64,000 nucleotides of DNA from Oscillatoria sp. FACHB-1406 (GTDB taxonomy: Bacteria > Cyanobacteriota > Cyanobacteriia > Cyanobacteriales > Spirulinaceae): the NCBI RefSeq assembly GCF_014698145.1, contig NZ_JACJSM010000015.1, positions 62,001-126,000 of the forward strand, in the 5' to 3' direction. The notes under the pieces are model-generated. The model was not told where the DNA came from. It did not search any database and worked only from the letters and a program-made list of their open reading frames with translations. Positions within the stretch are counted from its first letter, which is position 1, and the number at the start of each line of letters is the position of its first letter. The position numbers and the translations under genes were made by a program. Positions 39,100 to 44,273 of the stretch are shown piece after piece.

Positions 39100-39750
39100 T
39101 TAAGCGTTTCGCGATCGCCCTGCGGCAAGCTGTTGCCTTAAATCCCGAATCGCAGCGCTCGTGTTGCGCCCATAAGCGATTTCAATACAGCGCGCGATCG
39201 CATCCTGTAGATCGCGATCGGGGAAGTAAACGCTTTGAGTTTGAAGCTGATAATTCGCTCCATCTAGCCGATAAATCAAGAGTTGCTGCTTTTTTAACAG
39301 CCAAACTTCCGGTACGCGATAAGGAAGATAATCCGCCACATCCGAATAACTGGTAACATCGATTTCGATAACCAAATCTGGCGGCGGATCGTTTTTCCAG
39401 TCAATCCGCTTCTTTCCACACACCGCTTGCCAGTTATTAATATAAAAACAATAATTCGGTTCGATGCCGCTTTCTTCCGGCAAAGTCATCGTCACGGGAG
39501 TAAACGCATCGTATTCTCGCCCCTCGAAATCTAAAAGAGTCGTGACAATACTCGCCAACAGATGAGCATCTTTTCCGTGAACCGGCAAGGGTGACATTAG
39601 CAATACTTCTCCGGAACGATACTTTAAACGCGGGATCGAGCCATCGCCTCTGCGATCGCACAAACTCTGATACTCTTGCCAAGTCGCAGGCAACCGCACG
39701 ACAGAACCGGGAGGTAATTGAATTTTTTCGGGCGAAACAATGGCTAGCAT
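39100..39750 (-). CDS. Uma2-family (DUF820) protein
   Basis: This 216-residue protein has the Uma2 layout: PATWQEYQSLCDRRGDG near the start, RLKYRSGEVLLMSPLPVHGKD, GIEPNYCFYINNW and the core DPPPDLVIEIDVTSYSD, then VPEVWLLKKQQLLIYRL. The PD-(D/E)xK-like acidic residues are present. The first eleven codons (MLAIVSPEKIQ) and the segment around RIDWKN recur, joined together, in the chimeric gene at 41937-42224. It is downstream of, and on the same strand as, the ParA-type operon, 61 bp away. Confidence 0.82.
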   Translation of the reverse strand: MLAIVSPEKIQLPPGSVVRLPATWQEYQSLCDRRGDGSIPRLKYRSGEVLLMSPLPVHGKDAHLLASIVTTLLDFEGREYDAFTPVTMTLPEESGIEPNYCFYINNWQAVCGKKRIDWKNDPPPDLVIEIDVTSYSDVADYLPYRVPEVWLLKKQQLLIYRLDGANYQLQTQSVYFPDRDLQDAIARCIEIAYGRNTSAAIRDLRQQLAAGRSRNA

Positions 39751-39811
39751 AATATCAATTCCCTTGAACTACCATTCCTTCGCTATCATAATAGAAAATA
39801 GCCGTCTCGAC

Positions 39812-40516
39812 CTACATTTCTAAGCTTCTCAGCGCAGAAATAAGAGCATCTTTTTTCATCTTGCTAATTCCCTTAATCCCCTGTTGCTTCGCCCTCGTTT
39901 TTAGCTCTGCTACGGAGAGCGAACTCAGTAACTCAGCTTCATTAACGACTTTATTAATGGGTTCGGAAGTTGCTTCGGGTTCGAGATAAAAAACTTGCTT
40001 CAACGCATCGAGTTTTTTTCCCTTAGTTATGCCACATTTTAAAGTTGTAATCGGGGTAAAATTTTTCCAGCTTTGGCGCGGTGCTTCGTCAATTCGATTG
40101 GTAGCAACAGCAAGTTTTACAGTTTTGAGTGGGCTGGCGGGTTGTTTAATTAAATATTCCAGAGCCGAGGCTATTTCATCTCTCGATGCCGTTGAAAGAT
40201 TAATCTTTGGCATCTGCTCGCCTGATAGCACTTTCACCACTTCTTCTGCATCGCCCTCTGGATTGACAATAATGCACCAGACTCGTTCTAAGGCGGCTTC
40301 TTCAGCAACAGTATAGACAAACGAATTTCCGATAACCTGATATTTATCTCTGCCAATCTCTTTAACAATAATTGGAACCCAATTCGTGCCGCCTTTTTCA
40401 GTTAGCAAGCGAGCCGAGGCTTTAATCGAGAATGTTGAAGCTTCCGTTTTTCCTCCAGCCTCGATATCATCCAAATAGAGATACATGAGCTTCCCAATAT
40501 CTTCAACTGCACTCAT
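39812..40516 (-). CDS. ParB-like protein with C-terminal Rho_N/SAP-like motif, partner of the ParA-nuclease fusion
   Basis: This 234-residue protein has, at 46-84 (WVPIIVKEIGRDKYQVIGN then a helix and VWCIIV), the strand-helix pattern of the ParB/Srx N-terminal domain; the GERR box that ParB uses to bind CTP is missing. The C-terminal 35 residues (LSVAELKTRAKQQGIKGISK, then KKDALISALR) look like a Rho_N or SAP nucleic-acid-binding motif. Its ATG overlaps the TGA of the upstream ParA-type gene by four bases (ATGA), so the two are translationally coupled. I do not know a named family with this combination. A role as DNA-binding partner of the ATPase is inferred from context. Confidence 0.6.
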   Translation of the reverse strand: MSAVEDIGKLMYLYLDDIEAGGKTEASTFSIKASARLLTEKGGTNWVPIIVKEIGRDKYQVIGNSFVYTVAEEAALERVWCIIVNPEGDAEEVVKVLSGEQMPKINLSTASRDEIASALEYLIKQPASPLKTVKLAVATNRIDEAPRQSWKNFTPITTLKCGITKGKKLDALKQVFYLEPEATSEPINKVVNEAELLSSLSVAELKTRAKQQGIKGISKMKKDALISALRSLEM

Positions 40517-41850
40517 TGTAAGAAATACTCCTTAGCTAAATTTTTATAATATTCGTGAGCGGTTCTATCGCGATAAACCGCAGGAGTGTTGGAAAATGCC
40601 GAGCTTGCAATTCCCGCATAACTCGGCACGATCGCAACATGAAGGTCTTTTTTTGCATTCGTATGTCTGGGATAGAAGTATGGCAGCAAATCGACTTTCT
40701 CTTTCCGTGCATCCGTGATGATTTTATGAATGGCGTGCTGAGCCGCTTCTAATTGAGGATTTGTAATCTTCTCTCCATTAAAAAAGATTGGCAAGGCAAT
40801 TGGACTTCCATCTTTTTTTTCAGCCTGAATTTCAGGAATAAACTTTTTAATAGCAACAGCAGCATTCTGCAAGGAGAAGAGACTATTATGTTTTGTGGGA
40901 ATCAAAATTACGTCTGCTGCAAAAACTGCCAGTTGACTCAAAATTCTCCAGTTAGGAGGTGAATCGATTAAAATATAGTCGTATTCATTTCTTACTGATT
41001 CTAACACTTGATGTAAACGATGGCGCGTCATCAGTTTCAGCAGTTGGTCATCGGTAGTATTAGAAAACTTCTCATCCGCCGGAATGACATCAAATGCAAC
41101 TTGCAATTTTTTGGTTTTGAAGAAAAATTCATAAGAGCAAAGAGCGCTGTCTACCGGAATATTGCGTTCGGTGAGAAAATCATATACGCTCCCTTGACTT
41201 AACGAAATTCCTAATGCACGAGTTAAGTCGTGTTGGTTTGGATCGAAGTCAATTACCAATACTTTTTTTCCGGCTAAGGTCAGTATCCCTGCTAAATTAA
41301 TGGTAGTTGTTGTTTTTCCAACGCCACCTTTATTATTATACACTGTGACAGTCAGCGCTCGGCTAGCACTCTCAATTTTGTGGCGTATTTCAGCAATTCT
41401 ATTGTCAATATTATTTGTGTCTAAAACGTAACAAGGCGTGGCAGGATAAATAACTTTGCCGTGTTTACGAAACAATTGAATGTGGTCTGCATTGGTAATA
41501 ATTCCCCACTGAGCGCTTTTACAGCTTGCGCCGAGAAGGTAGCGTTTTATTTGAGCAACAGTGCTTTTATATTGCGGGCTACCACTCGCTAAGTTTACAT
41601 CTCTTCCCTTTAACTCTACAAGGAGATAAGGATTAGATTTGGTATGCAAGAATATATTGTTTCCGTTATTTTTTCTAACTGCTAGATCGACAGCCGATTT
41701 TCCGTCTCCTGTCTGATATTCTGGATAAATTTCGTTGGATTCAAAACCTAATGCTTTTAGTAGCTCGTAGGAAAAGTTAGAAGCAACGATAGCTTCTGGA
41801 GCATTAGCAGGAAGATTGTGCAGGACAGGCTGAAGACTGATAGAAGTCAT
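40513..41850 (-). CDS. ParA-type ATPase fused to an N-terminal PD-(D/E)xK nuclease-like domain
   Basis: This 445-residue protein has two parts. Residues 1-150 resemble the N-terminal nuclease domain of type I restriction enzyme HsdR: D55 (SAVDLAV), E79-L-K81 (LLVELKGRDV) and Q100-x3-Y104 (AQIKRYL) make a complete D...ExK...QxxxY set. Residues 165-445 are a ParA/MinD-type ATPase with the deviant Walker A KGGVGKTT (174-181, signature Lys K174), Walker A' VLVIDFDPNQHDLT and Walker B YILIDSPPN (D296). ParA proteins move or position DNA; a nuclease domain on one is unusual. The gene is AT-richer than housekeeping neighbours. It forms an ATGA-overlap operon with the ParB-like gene. Plasmid partition, phage or plasmid defence, or transposon targeting are all possible. 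Confidence 0.8.
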   Translation of the reverse strand: MTSISLQPVLHNLPANAPEAIVASNFSYELLKALGFESNEIYPEYQTGDGKSAVDLAVRKNNGNNIFLHTKSNPYLLVELKGRDVNLASGSPQYKSTVAQIKRYLLGASCKSAQWGIITNADHIQLFRKHGKVIYPATPCYVLDTNNIDNRIAEIRHKIESASRALTVTVYNNKGGVGKTTTTINLAGILTLAGKKVLVIDFDPNQHDLTRALGISLSQGSVYDFLTERNIPVDSALCSYEFFFKTKKLQVAFDVIPADEKFSNTTDDQLLKLMTRHRLHQVLESVRNEYDYILIDSPPNWRILSQLAVFAADVILIPTKHNSLFSLQNAAVAIKKFIPEIQAEKKDGSPIALPIFFNGEKITNPQLEAAQHAIHKIITDARKEKVDLLPYFYPRHTNAKKDLHVAIVPSYAGIASSAFSNTPAVYRDRTAHEYYKNLAKEYFLQ

Positions 41851-41936
41851 GTTTGAAGTGGATTAGCTTCCGGTCGTGGCTCCTTCTATTATGCCCACTT
41901 CTCAAAACTTATTCCCAAAAAGAAAAGATTTTTAAT

Positions 41937-42224
41937 TTACTGCTGGTGTTGTAAAATCGGCAGTAGAATCTCTGGCGAAACGCGATCGCTCGTTGTCACT
42001 TCTCCCAAGCGCGTCGGCAAAATGAATCGAACGCGACCGGCTTTAACTTTCTTATCGAGTTCCAAAGCCGTTAAAATGCTAAAAACTTCTACATTGGCGG
42101 GAGTTTTTACCGGAAGTCCTGTTTTAATAATTAGTTCTTGCTGCCGTTGCACTTCTGTTTCCGTCCACTTTTTTCCAGTCAATCCGCTTCTTTGAATTTT
42201 TTCGGGCGAAACAATAGCTAGCAT
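41937..42224 (-). pseudogene. chimeric fragment: Uma2 start joined to a second copy of the aroB 3' end
   Basis: The frame starts with MLAIVSPEKIQ, identical to the start of the Uma2 protein at 39750. It then has bases identical to the Uma2 segment that encodes KKRIDWK (near 39400-39420) but read in another frame (RSGLTGKK), and then switches to a 75-residue stretch that matches the AroB C-terminus ([17 protein letters not shown] to LLPILQ) with about six substitutions. The reading frame is open over 95 codons but no whole domain is encoded. It records at least two recombination events. Confidence 0.85.
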
Positions 42225-42342
42225 AATAAGCAGGTATGCAAAATTATTTACACATAACCATGAGCCAAAAAGCAGGAAAGCCAAGGGTTTCAGGATTTGC
42301 AAGTGAGTAATTTATTTTGCTTAGGTGCTTATCAACAATATC

Positions 42343-42861
42343 TCACATTAAGTCTTCCCTAAGCTTAGTCAGTATCAACCCCATCCAATTTTTACCCGGC
42401 CACTGACTGATATCAAAAATTTTAGGATCGTTTCGATCCAATCCCACGCTCCACTTTCGATCGTGACGGTAAGCTTCTACCAGTAGAGTTCCACGAGTCT
42501 TCAGTAACAGATCTAATAAATGTTCGTGCTGTGAAAATTTCTCTTTATTTCCTCGATAAACAATTTGTTGACAGTATTGACTCCAGATAGTGCTGTCAAA
42601 GTTTTGAACCATTCTCCCTAATTCCTGATGTTGTTGAGGATGCTTAGCAGCGATTATCTTTTTAGCGGTTTGAAGGTCGCCAAACAATAAAGCTTTCTGG
42701 TACATCATAAATTGCTCGGCACAGTTATAGGTAATGCCATTTAAAGTGAAAGGCACAATATACCACTGCGAAAAAGGCGAGGTATAGTCCACAAAAAAAG
42801 TAAATTGTTTATAAAAATAAAGTTCAACTTTATCGACAATTGAAGCATTTTTTATATTCAT
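42343..42861 (-). CDS. NADAR-domain (YbiA/DUF1768-like) protein
   Basis: This 172-residue protein shows the NADAR pattern: SPFSQWYIVPFTLNGITYNCAEQFMMYQ split over about 30-55 with the conserved Glu, then KALLFGD, the helix AKKIIAAKHPQQHQELG, and the C-terminal GKNWMGLILTKLREDL. NADAR domains act on ADP-ribose or NAD derivatives; some remove ADP-ribose from guanine in DNA and serve as antitoxins to DarT-type toxins, others clean up riboflavin intermediates. No DarT-like gene is adjacent. The ATG at 42861 is preferred to a TTG at 42879. It lies between the two copies of the aroB 3' end. Confidence 0.8.
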   Translation of the reverse strand: MNIKNASIVDKVELYFYKQFTFFVDYTSPFSQWYIVPFTLNGITYNCAEQFMMYQKALLFGDLQTAKKIIAAKHPQQHQELGRMVQNFDSTIWSQYCQQIVYRGNKEKFSQHEHLLDLLLKTRGTLLVEAYRHDRKWSVGLDRNDPKIFDISQWPGKNWMGLILTKLREDLM

Positions 42862-43166
42862 AGCTTCTTCAGGAATCAATTTACAAGTATCAATTTATTG
42901 TTTAACATTATTCATATTTTTATTGATAAAATATTTAGACTATCAGTTTTTGACTAATGAAGATATTTTGTCTCAAGAAATCCACTTTCTAAACCGGCTA
43001 TTTGCTTTAATTGACGAATTTCATACAAATGCGATTGAAGCACATAACACCCAACGTCTTCAATAAGAGACCCGACGCAATTCCCTAAGAAAGTGCAGAA
43101 GTCCCCACCTTTAGTATCGTCAATATCGGGTCAGTTAGCTCAATTTCGTAAAACTTCTTCTCATTT

Positions 43167-44273
43167 TTATGAAAAAGCGTTGTTCGAGTGTTGTAAAATC
43201 GGAAGTAGAATCTCTGGCGAAACGCGATCGCTCATTGTCACTTCTCCTAAGCGCGTTGGCAAAATGAATCGAACGCGACCGCCTTTAACTTTCTTATCGA
43301 GTTCCAAAGCTGTTAAAATGCTAGAAACTTCTACATTGGCGGGAATTTTTACCGGAAGTCCTGCTTTAATAATTAGTTCTTGCTGCCGTTGCGCTTCTGT
43401 TTCAGTCCAAATTTCCAATGCGAGGGCAATTTCTCCAGCCGCAACCATACCAATTCCGACTGCTTCGCCGTGATTGATGCTACGATATCCCGTTAAACTT
43501 TCGATCGCGTGACCAATCGTATGACCGTAGTTGAGAATCGCGCGCAACCCCGCTTCTTTTTCATCTTTCCCGACCACATCTGCCTTCGCTTGACAAGAGC
43601 GTAGTAAGATAAAATTTAGCAGTTCTGGGTCAAATGTTCGGAAGCGATCGAGATGTTTTGCAGCCTCGAGTTTCTCGAACAATTCCACATCCCAAATCAC
43701 CCCATATTTAATAACTTCTGCCATCCCCGCGCGGAATTCTCGCGATGGCAACGTTTCCAAAACATTGGGATCGATCGCAACCCACTTGGGTTGATAAAAT
43801 GCACCAATCAAGTTTTTTCCTTGGGGGTGATTGACTCCCGTTTTACCGCCAATCGAAGCATCTACCATCGCTAAGAGCGAAGTCGGAACTTGAACGAAAT
43901 TAATCCCTCGCAACCAAGTTGCTGCTGCAAATCCTGTCATATCTCCAATTACGCCACCCCCTAATGCGACTAAGGTTGAGGAACGTTCCAAGCGTTTTTC
44001 GATCGCGGTATCGTAGACTTTCTGAATCGAATTTAGGGTTTTGTAGCGTTCTCCAGGGGGAATTAAATGATAGCTGGTGTCAAATCCGGCTTCCTTTAGC
44101 GATTTAAGGGCGCGATCGCCGTATAGTTTAAAAATAGCAGGATTGGAAACCAGTAAAACTTTTTTGCCGAGTTTAAGCTGACTCATTTCTGCGCCGATGC
44201 GATCTAAAAGACCGGGCGCGATCGTAAGATCGTAGGAATTATCAGGTAGTGCAACGCGAATGGTCGAAGACAT
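43167..44273 (-). CDS. aroB: 3-dehydroquinate synthase
   Basis: This 368-residue enzyme makes 3-dehydroquinate from DAHP, the second step of the shikimate pathway, with NAD and a metal ion. Visible are the NAD-binding [19 protein letters not shown], the substrate loop [18 protein letters not shown], and the metal-binding His residues in [12 protein letters not shown] and [10 protein letters not shown]. The last residues (HSNNAFS) differ from relatives and from the duplicated fragment (HQQ), so the very 3' end may have been altered when the copy was made. Upstream of the ATG lie heptameric repeats. Confidence 0.95.

Follow-up and report, generated by a model that had tools for sequence, protein, structure and literature searches.

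How might a ParA ATPase be used when it carries what looks like a nuclease domain of its own? ParA ATPases move plasmids, chromosomes, carboxysomes and other cargo, and we know of no ParA that bears its own nuclease. The question is raised by two overlapping genes in a stretch of 64,000 nucleotides from Oscillatoria sp. FACHB-1406 (the window). The initial annotation had described a nuclease-type domain before a complete ParA ATPase, together with a ParB-like partner protein. Its coordinates for both genes and their ATGA overlap proved correct; that both genes lie on the minus strand was missing from it. The pair has the following features:

40513-41850, minus strand: nuclease–ParA fusion gene, an ORF of 445 aa
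41371..41850, minus strand: HSDR_N_2-type PD-(D/E)xK domain, fusion residues 1-160 (Pfam, residue conservation, predicted element order)
40513..41370, minus strand: ParA ATPase domain, fusion residues 161-445 (Pfam AAA_31, fold match of the model)
39812-40516, minus strand: ParB-like partner gene, 234 aa (ORF, Pfam, fold match of the model)
40513..40516, minus strand: ATGA start/stop overlap of the fusion gene and the partner gene (sequence reading)

The junction of the two genes reads ...CAATGAGT, which is the ATGA overlap.

Domains of the fusion protein and its partner

The ParA ATPase is complete. Pfam AAA_31 matches the window protein with 121.4 bits, and the deviant Walker A motif is KGGVGKT (K174, K179), accompanied by D203 and by D296 of Walker B. 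K174, which had been pointed out initially, is present in all 43 aligned homologues, as are G175, G176, K179, D203 and D296. The model of the ParA part matches Soj, ParA and McdA with Z about 18-20, residues 321-445 being largely at pLDDT near or below 50. In some ordinary ParAs, an N-terminal HTH stands before the ATPase.

The N-terminal domain of the fusion protein looks like a PD-(D/E)xK nuclease of the HSDR_N kind, and DNA cutting is predicted for it. When residues 1-160 are isolated, they match Pfam HSDR_N_2 with 31.6 bits (cut-off 25, E 1.8e-7); the family goes unreported in a scan of the full-length window protein. HSDR_N_2 is also found at E<=0.1 in 33 of 42 N-domains of homologues. 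For residues 1-150, where the initial annotation had allowed for a non-nuclease fold, the Pfam assignment is HSDR_N_2. The key residues are E19, D55, E79-x-K81 and Q100-x3-Y104, all but E19 having been claimed before at these very positions. Across the 43 aligned homologues, which include the window protein, E19 and E79 are invariant, while D55 is kept in 41, K81 in 41, Q100 in 40 and Y104 in 35.

D55, E79 and K81 are jointly intact in 41 of the 43 proteins, and a deeper set with this domain layout keeps the catalytic residues in 16 of 16 cases. This exceeds the need of a mere DNA-binding domain and counts for the nuclease reading. It also makes it improbable that the nuclease has been retired, with the N-domain left only to bind DNA or to dimerise and the pair positioning something else, although the site is ruined in two of the 43 copies, one of which still has its partner. 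A chance motif is ruled out by the conservation in 41 of 43 homologues together with the HSDR_N_2 match. In the structure model, the predicted order of elements is two helices, three strands, a helix and three strands; the mean pLDDT per ten residues is 72-93, but 38 at residues 61-70. Fold-comparison lists for the whole-chain model are filled by ParA relatives and name no nuclease, the N-domain being barely probed by them, and a sequence search of solved structures with the N-domain gave nothing useful.

According to its model, the partner has a ParB-like fold without the GERR/CTP motif (residues 1-102), followed by a ComEA-like region (about 102-179) and a Rho_N/SAP-like end (192-234). The fold matches ParB, Noc and PadC with Z 9.5-10.1 over 87-93 residues, and the GERR box is found in 0 of 32 partners, with GNSF or similar at its position; both agree with the initial description. 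Pfam ParB_N stays under its cut-off for the window partner (14.3 vs 26.3 bits). It occurs at E<=0.1 in 30 of the 32 partners, and in a more distant relative the partner does pass the cut-off (39.4 bits). The nucleic-acid-binding-like C-terminus, also noted before, is recognised by Rho_N (25.8 bits, cut-off 24.9). In fold comparison this end resembles the SAP region of FAN1 and the end of endonuclease VII, and the middle resembles part of ComEA, with modest Z values of 5.3-6.5. The HhH-like and Rho_N/SAP modules resemble general or structure-type DNA-binding parts, and DNA binding is predicted. Among the 13 Pfam families matched by the 32 partners at E<=0.1, there is no HTH family.

Distribution among cyanobacteria

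We found 43 full-length homologues in 386 cyanobacterial genomes. As the best four candidates per genome (seven in one search) were scored, absences are provisional. The two-gene arrangement, for which a genome search had been suggested, is conserved: the partner adjoins the fusion gene in 37 of the 43 homologues and was undetected next to the other six. In 28 of the 37 cases the matches overlap or are at most 2 nt apart (stop codon uncounted). No third conserved gene was found within 7 kb of 38 anchors, so that no fixed methyltransferase or replication gene accompanies the pair.

In 14 sampled genera, carriers and listed non-carriers of the window subtype occur side by side (best four candidates per genome), and in genus g23 the pair is present in 10 of 12 genomes. 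The homologue tree mixes families and extends beyond the order of the window, whose own genome has three members in three clades. At 22 of 23 loci the G+C content of the pair is below that of its surroundings, by a mean of 6.7 points. In G116, the nearest family member, aroB is followed by other genes on a 6.7-kb contig, on which Uma2, NADAR and the pair had no match; an empty site for comparison with the window is therefore not seen there. Judged from these sequences, the pair is a self-contained two-gene cassette that is patchy, horizontally mixed and carried by many cyanobacteria. A chromosomal partition locus is unlikely, given the patchy presence and the lack of shared neighbours.

Further searches went beyond these genomes. 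At E<=1e-20 for the window protein and at E<=1e-10 for the L062 type, all matches among 72,556 plasmids were cyanobacterial. The deeper-set protein matched 1,134 plasmid records, none over at least 80% of the query. Of three non-cyanobacterial matches that were retrieved, those from Azospirillum and Runella were translated, the third being from Niveispirillum; both are ParAs whose short N-terminus looks by eye like an HTH and not like HSDR_N, and were rejected. The 50,697 phage records contained no relative spanning 80% of the query. One pattern scan that reached the chromosomes of other phyla gave five cyanobacterial relatives of full length and one match with ParA alone.

The deeper set has full-length matches in 43 of the 386 genomes. 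Nearly full-length matches with one or both profiles occur in 71 genomes, or in 74 when six split matches are included, three of which are in genomes uncounted before. This spread, and the resemblance of the partner to FAN1, endonuclease VII and ComEA, would suit a role in DNA repair or recombination: the HhH- and SAP-like modules would direct a nuclease that roams the nucleoid to DNA with breaks or branches in the cyanobacterial chromosome, which is polyploid. We consider this quite unlikely, since the cassette is AT-rich, patchy and horizontally mixed, since one genome holds several copies of it and plasmids carry it too, and since the fusion protein evolves fast.

Proposed function and plasmid copies

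Our best guess, offered tentatively, is that the pair could be a nuclease that ParA positions and that is directed at foreign or competing replicons. The HsdR-type nuclease domain would occupy the N-terminal position of ParA, and the ATP-bound ParA dimer would coat nucleoid DNA. The partner would bind particular DNA, be it a structure, an end, a fork or a foreign replicon, and not a fixed centromere. By stimulating the ATPase it would gather and activate the nuclease domains at the bound DNA, and unwanted DNA such as that of phages or competing plasmids would be cut. We infer all of these parts: DNA cutting, trigger, target and benefit to the host or the carrying element. Conceivably, a spatial machine of the ParA/ParB type would here serve as a weapon, the ParA-borne nuclease being fired where a CTP-independent ParB-like sensor gathers, clearing foreign or rival replicons. 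If true, this would be a DNA-surveillance class apart from restriction-modification, CRISPR and SMC-based plasmid clearing. If active, the two-gene system would join DNA positioning and DNA cutting in one polypeptide; it would bear on the resistance of some cyanobacteria to foreign plasmids, and on ParB folds without CTP.

In genus g23 the median dN/dS is 0.69 for the fusion protein vs 0.09 for the partner (15 pairs from 6 genomes). The value of the fusion protein exceeds that of most flanking genes and fits the expectation for an arms-race protein; it may instead reflect relaxed constraint. One g23 copy has a stop codon. Defence enrichment is not clear from a neighbourhood comparison with PADLOC, in which 126 models were matched by 144 neighbours and 35 by 94 controls; these figures count models (25 of them listed) and not proteins, the models are redundant, and the controls flank related genes.

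The main rival, which we regard as somewhat less likely, is partition or replicon maintenance. ParA and an unusual DNA binder would maintain whatever carries them, be it a plasmid, a phage-plasmid or an integrated element, the nuclease domain would process that carrier's own DNA (for instance multimers or forks) or remove incompatible copies, and chromosomal copies would be remnants or captured cassettes. The order of ParA followed by a ParB-like gene and the ATPase residues are canonical, and the partner is under strong purifying selection. In addition, a profile search detected no ParA other than that of the pair on ABRG53g, a plasmid of 12.6 kb, or in the 72.8 of 77.8 kb that were scanned for pLBA. 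However, of the six distinct plasmids that bear the pair or a relative, four (three from Nostoc, one from Pseudanabaena) have another ParA-like gene, and two of these four have ParM as well. The replicon type is clear for 21 of the 43 copies, 18 being on contigs of at least 1 Mb and three on plasmids, and replication genes are not conserved around the pair. Occurrence only as a standard plasmid partition cassette, which the initial annotation had considered, is at odds with these contigs and with the additional ParA-like genes. ABRG53g and pLBA are related plasmids, and pLBA has an annotated terminase.

Candidate centromere sites were searched as exact 8-mers within 350 bp at 23 loci (46 flanks) and compared with 100 shuffles, a procedure that distant, single or degenerate sites escape. 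Repeated 8-mers exceeded all 100 shuffles in five of the 46 flanks, which counts for maintenance; three of these represent the common HIP1-like word CGATCGC. The other two are AATTATGA, five times in L067, and CACCCACA, four times in L047. Maintenance is further disfavoured by the lack of any exact 10-nt word common to four of the 23 loci and of an HTH family in Pfam scans of the 32 partners.

In favour of surveillance by a positioned nuclease we count the intact catalytic residues, the adjacency of the genes and the lack of other conserved neighbours, their patchiness, the mixed tree, the low G+C content, the fast evolution of the fusion protein in g23, the 18 of 43 copies on large contigs, the second ParA on four of six plasmids and, in the exact-word search, the lack of a common site and of an iterated word beside most copies. 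Against it we count the unclear defence enrichment, the plasmids with a sole detected ParA, the homologues without a partner, the two ruined sites, the g23 stop codon and the flanks with repeats.

Comparison with known systems

As the initial annotation had stated, the layout of HSDR_N–ParA plus a ParB-like protein appears to be undescribed: no such system was found in the literature searched. Type I ParABS systems (ParA/Soj and ParB/Spo0J) share all Walker residues and the ParB-fold partner directly downstream. The pair differs in having an HSDR_N domain before ParA, in a partner without GERR and Pfam-visible HTH but with HhH-like and Rho_N/SAP-like parts, and in that an exact-word search found no shared site beside its genes.

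In ParA-ParT-parS from Streptomyces plasmid SCP2, as far as the consulted parts of PMC12260392 describe it, the partner is likewise not CTP-reliant. ParT has no CTPase domain and is loaded, probably via its M domain, onto an 18-bp parS. The partner studied here differs in retaining a ParB-like fold, with GERR missing, and in working beside a ParA that has a nuclease-type domain attached; the word "nuclease" is absent from the main text of that article as consulted. The same parts report ParT homologues in 21 cyanobacterial species, while of the 45 cases in which a ParA lies nearby, 44 belong to actinobacteria. Passages from a survey of ParB-CTPase folds (PMC12704722) report that fusions often rewire ParB folds and that other NTPs may be bound. 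That survey searched with PF02195 at its cut-off, below which the window partner falls; in these passages ParB-DUF3850 is the only fusion reported steadily beside parA, and an HSDR_N-ParA pair is not named.

The N-terminal domain of type I restriction HsdR (HSDR_N_2 / HSDR_N) has the same D...ExK signature. The fusion protein differs from HsdR in having no helicase family (Pfam) and in being joined to ParA, and the pair has no conserved neighbour that could be a methylase or specificity gene (38 anchors). Ordinary restriction-modification is ruled out, as there are neither conserved HsdM/HsdS partners nor a helicase. The plasmid-clearing systems Wadjet and MksBEFG are SMC-based; they resemble our proposal in coupling a DNA-roaming ATPase to a nuclease and differ in that the pair has no conserved third gene.

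The window partner has no match in PADLOC at E<=1. PDC-M28B of that collection is a candidate and not a tested system. One of its models is matched at E<=1e-5 by 30 of 41 members, the match of the window protein spanning 98 of the 438 profile positions.

A nuclease-type ParA protein and its ParB-like partner

The measurements describe the pair as a compact, mobile two-gene module: a ParA motor bearing a nuclease site that appears intact, together with a predicted ParB-like DNA binder without the CTP motif. The end of the fusion gene and the start of the partner gene share an ATGA, the overlap already described in the initial annotation.

41850 down to 40513, minus strand: fusion gene (upstream, 445 residues)
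40516 down to 39812, minus strand: partner gene (downstream, 234 residues)

A nuclease set (D55, E79-x-K81, Q100-x3-Y104) in front of a complete ParA with K174 had been proposed for the fusion protein, and both assignments hold. Residues 1-160 alone match HSDR_N_2, the Pfam family for the N-terminal domain of the type I restriction protein HsdR, with 31.6 bits (cut-off 25); this family was not reported when the full-length protein was scanned with Pfam. At E≤0.1 it is found in 33 of 42 homologous N-domains, and two full-length relatives, L174 with 25.7 and L187 with 25.9 bits, barely exceed the cut-off. In the alignment of 43 homologues, the window protein included, E19 and E79 never vary; D55 and K81 are each conserved in 41 sequences, Q100 in 40 and Y104 in 35. 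D55, E79 and K81 are jointly intact in 41 of the 43. The site is altered in another copy from the window genome (L051, C2:340495-341868, D55H and K81R), for which no partner was found, and in the copy of genome G157 (L078, D55G and K81T), which has one. These two copies speak for a retired nuclease domain and the 41 intact sites against it; this reading is very improbable and is ranked last.

The ParA part (AAA_31, residues 167-343, 121.4 bits) has its signature lysine K174, the Walker lysine K179, D203 and D296 invariant in all 43 homologues. The AlphaFold2 model of the fusion protein was built with a seven-sequence alignment and is poor over much of its C-terminal quarter. In the N-domain, ten-residue means of pLDDT are 72-93, but 38 at residues 61-70. 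The predicted elements are two helices, three strands, a helix and three strands, which is the order expected of the nuclease fold.

The partner was equally modelled from seven sequences (mean pLDDT 80), and three parts are predicted. Residues 1-102 resemble ParB, Noc and PadC (Z 9.5-10.1, rmsd 2.7-3.3 over 87-93 residues in the best seven matches) and the GERR box is missing from 32 of 32 partners, with GNSF or similar in its place, which bears out the ParB-like fold without GERR that had been claimed for this protein. Residues 102-179 resemble a part of ComEA which we take to be its helix-hairpin-helix domain (Z 6.5, rmsd 2.3, 62 residues), and residues 192-234 resemble the N-terminus of Rho and a region of FAN1, presumably SAP (Z 5.3-7.2). 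The Z-scores of these two model-based matches are modest, and common small helical arrangements could be their source. At E≤0.1, Pfam reports ParB_N in 30 and Rho_N in 25 of the 32 partners. Five partners (L074, L076, L078, L079, L080) have a different end, an apparent second copy of the middle module in the alignment. The ParB-like N-domain also occurs repeated or fused in viral-contig proteins (L170:5605-6675, L171:4126-9027, L172:4834-6285), and in the 12 kb around each of them the profile of the fusion protein has no match.

Distribution and pairing

A profile search with the fusion protein covered 386 genomes of the phylum, scoring the best four candidates per genome. It gave 43 matches at E≤1e-100 with nearly the whole profile covered, in 39 genomes. 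The suggested search for the two-gene arrangement was productive: the partner lies directly downstream on the same strand in 37 of 43 cases, with 28 of these pairs overlapping or at most 2 nt apart (stop codon not counted), and was not detected at the other six. When genes up to 7 kb from 38 anchors were clustered, the partner occurred in 33 loci and every other group in 7 or fewer; both groups with 7 loci are large families at scattered positions, by eye kinase-like and ABC-type.

A deeper set of more distant proteins with the same architecture keeps E11, E15, D46, E70 and K72 in 16 of 16 aligned members. For 14 of the 16 a gene on the same strand is listed downstream, and five of these genes match the partner profile (E≤1e-3); of three such proteins scanned with Pfam, one exceeds the ParB_N cut-off (39.4 bits), in another both ParB_N and Rho_N stay below theirs, and the third has neither. 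With the deeper-set profile, full-length matches number 43, one in each of 43 of the 386 genomes (again best four candidates each). Nearly full-length matches to either profile occur in 71 genomes, or 74 with split matches.

Searches of a collection of open-licence papers turned up no HSDR_N-ParA pair, and neither did passages of PMC1913061, PMC12704722, PMC12839542, PMC10853773, PMC5379612 and PMC12260392.

Mobility, replicons and possible function

The window (C15:62001-126000) belongs to a 5.47-Mb assembly with cyanobacterial relatives and with three copies of the fusion gene, which fall into three separate clades of a 48-protein tree. The window protein's clade is supported (100/98) and takes in members from four further family codes, of which two lie outside the window's order. 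Carriers of the window subtype stand beside non-carriers in at least 14 genera among the rows listed, which include only a minority of the non-carriers. In 22 of 23 loci the G+C of the pair is below that of its surroundings; the mean difference is 6.7 points (Wilcoxon p 5e-5).

The replicon is clear for 21 of 43 copies, and 18 of the 43 are on contigs at least 1 Mb long. Nostoc sp. UHCC 0870 carries three copies, one on each of three plasmids; all three plasmids have a further ParA-like gene, and two have ParM. A relative on Pseudanabaena galeata pPg_01 has a second small ParA-like gene close by. On the 12.6-kb plasmid ABRG53g, profile searches found no other ParA and a Pfam scan of ten proteins no further partition protein; on Leptolyngbya boryana pLBA, of which 72.8 of 77.8 kb was scanned, no other ParA was found. 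These two plasmids are the strongest evidence for the main rival reading, replicon maintenance with DNA processing, which we consider rather unlikely; a repair function, ranked after it, is more doubtful still. We tentatively favour DNA surveillance, which gives every part a role most economically: the partner would mark places on DNA, and the fusion protein would cut there.

Genes for terminase, integrase, Rad52 and AlkB are annotated on pLBA (L088/L215, NZ_AP014639.1), which, because of the terminase, looks like a phage-plasmid. For another pair (L089:5992-8015) the contig, 58 kb long, is classed as viral (IMGVR_UViG_3300009787_000008); small genes close to this pair resemble repressor genes by eye.

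The fusion gene occurs in 10 of 12 genomes of genus g23, with a stop codon in one. Among six of these genomes, its median dN/dS is 0.69 (0.23-1.0), that of the partner 0.09 (0.04-0.22), and flanking-gene pairs are mostly below 0.27, except for a GAF-type gene (0.15-0.55) and one pair (0.41). The catalytic residues do not vary among the six. Such fast change around an unvarying active site is consistent with an arms race; a duller account of the high fusion-gene values would be relaxed constraint.

Neighbourhood and candidate sites

Neighbour proteins were taken from 26 loci, 144 in all; their most frequent Pfam families are Uma2 (5) and, with 4 each, DUF29, phage integrase and radical SAM. These proteins match 126 PADLOC defence models, a redundant collection, at E≤1e-10, with at most 4 proteins each among the 25 models listed; 94 controls, from deeper-set loci and thus not neutral, match 35, with at most one protein each among 25 listed. 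Five loci from three clades (L072, L073, L068, L046, L078) lie within about 8 kb of genes resembling, by eye, the ATP synthase operon, in differing orientations; this is possibly an insertion spot common to several copies.

In the window, a Uma2 gene adjoins the pair and a NADAR-domain gene is close by:

42343-42879, minus strand: NADAR-domain gene (156 bits)

The latter only weakly resembles the anti-phage NADAR family NF053876 (28 bits, cut-off 240). Within 39100-44273, a decayed copy separates it from the pair, and aroB lies on the far side of the NADAR gene. This copy consists of a Uma2 start, a 24-nt inner Uma2 piece and 222 nt of the aroB end (95% identity). The arrangement reads as two putative alleles of an aroB-X-Uma2 slot in tandem, X being NADAR or the nuclease-ParA pair. 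Neither allele is present on the 6.7-kb contig of the nearest family member, G116.

Exact 8-mers within 350 bp of 23 loci (46 flanks) were compared with 100 shuffles each, and no 10-mer within 200 bp was common to four loci. In five flanks an 8-mer is repeated beyond all 100 shuffles. Three of these are HIP1-like CGATCGC words, which are common in cyanobacteria; the others are AATTATGA, five times beside L067, and CACCCACA, four times beside the plasmid locus L047.
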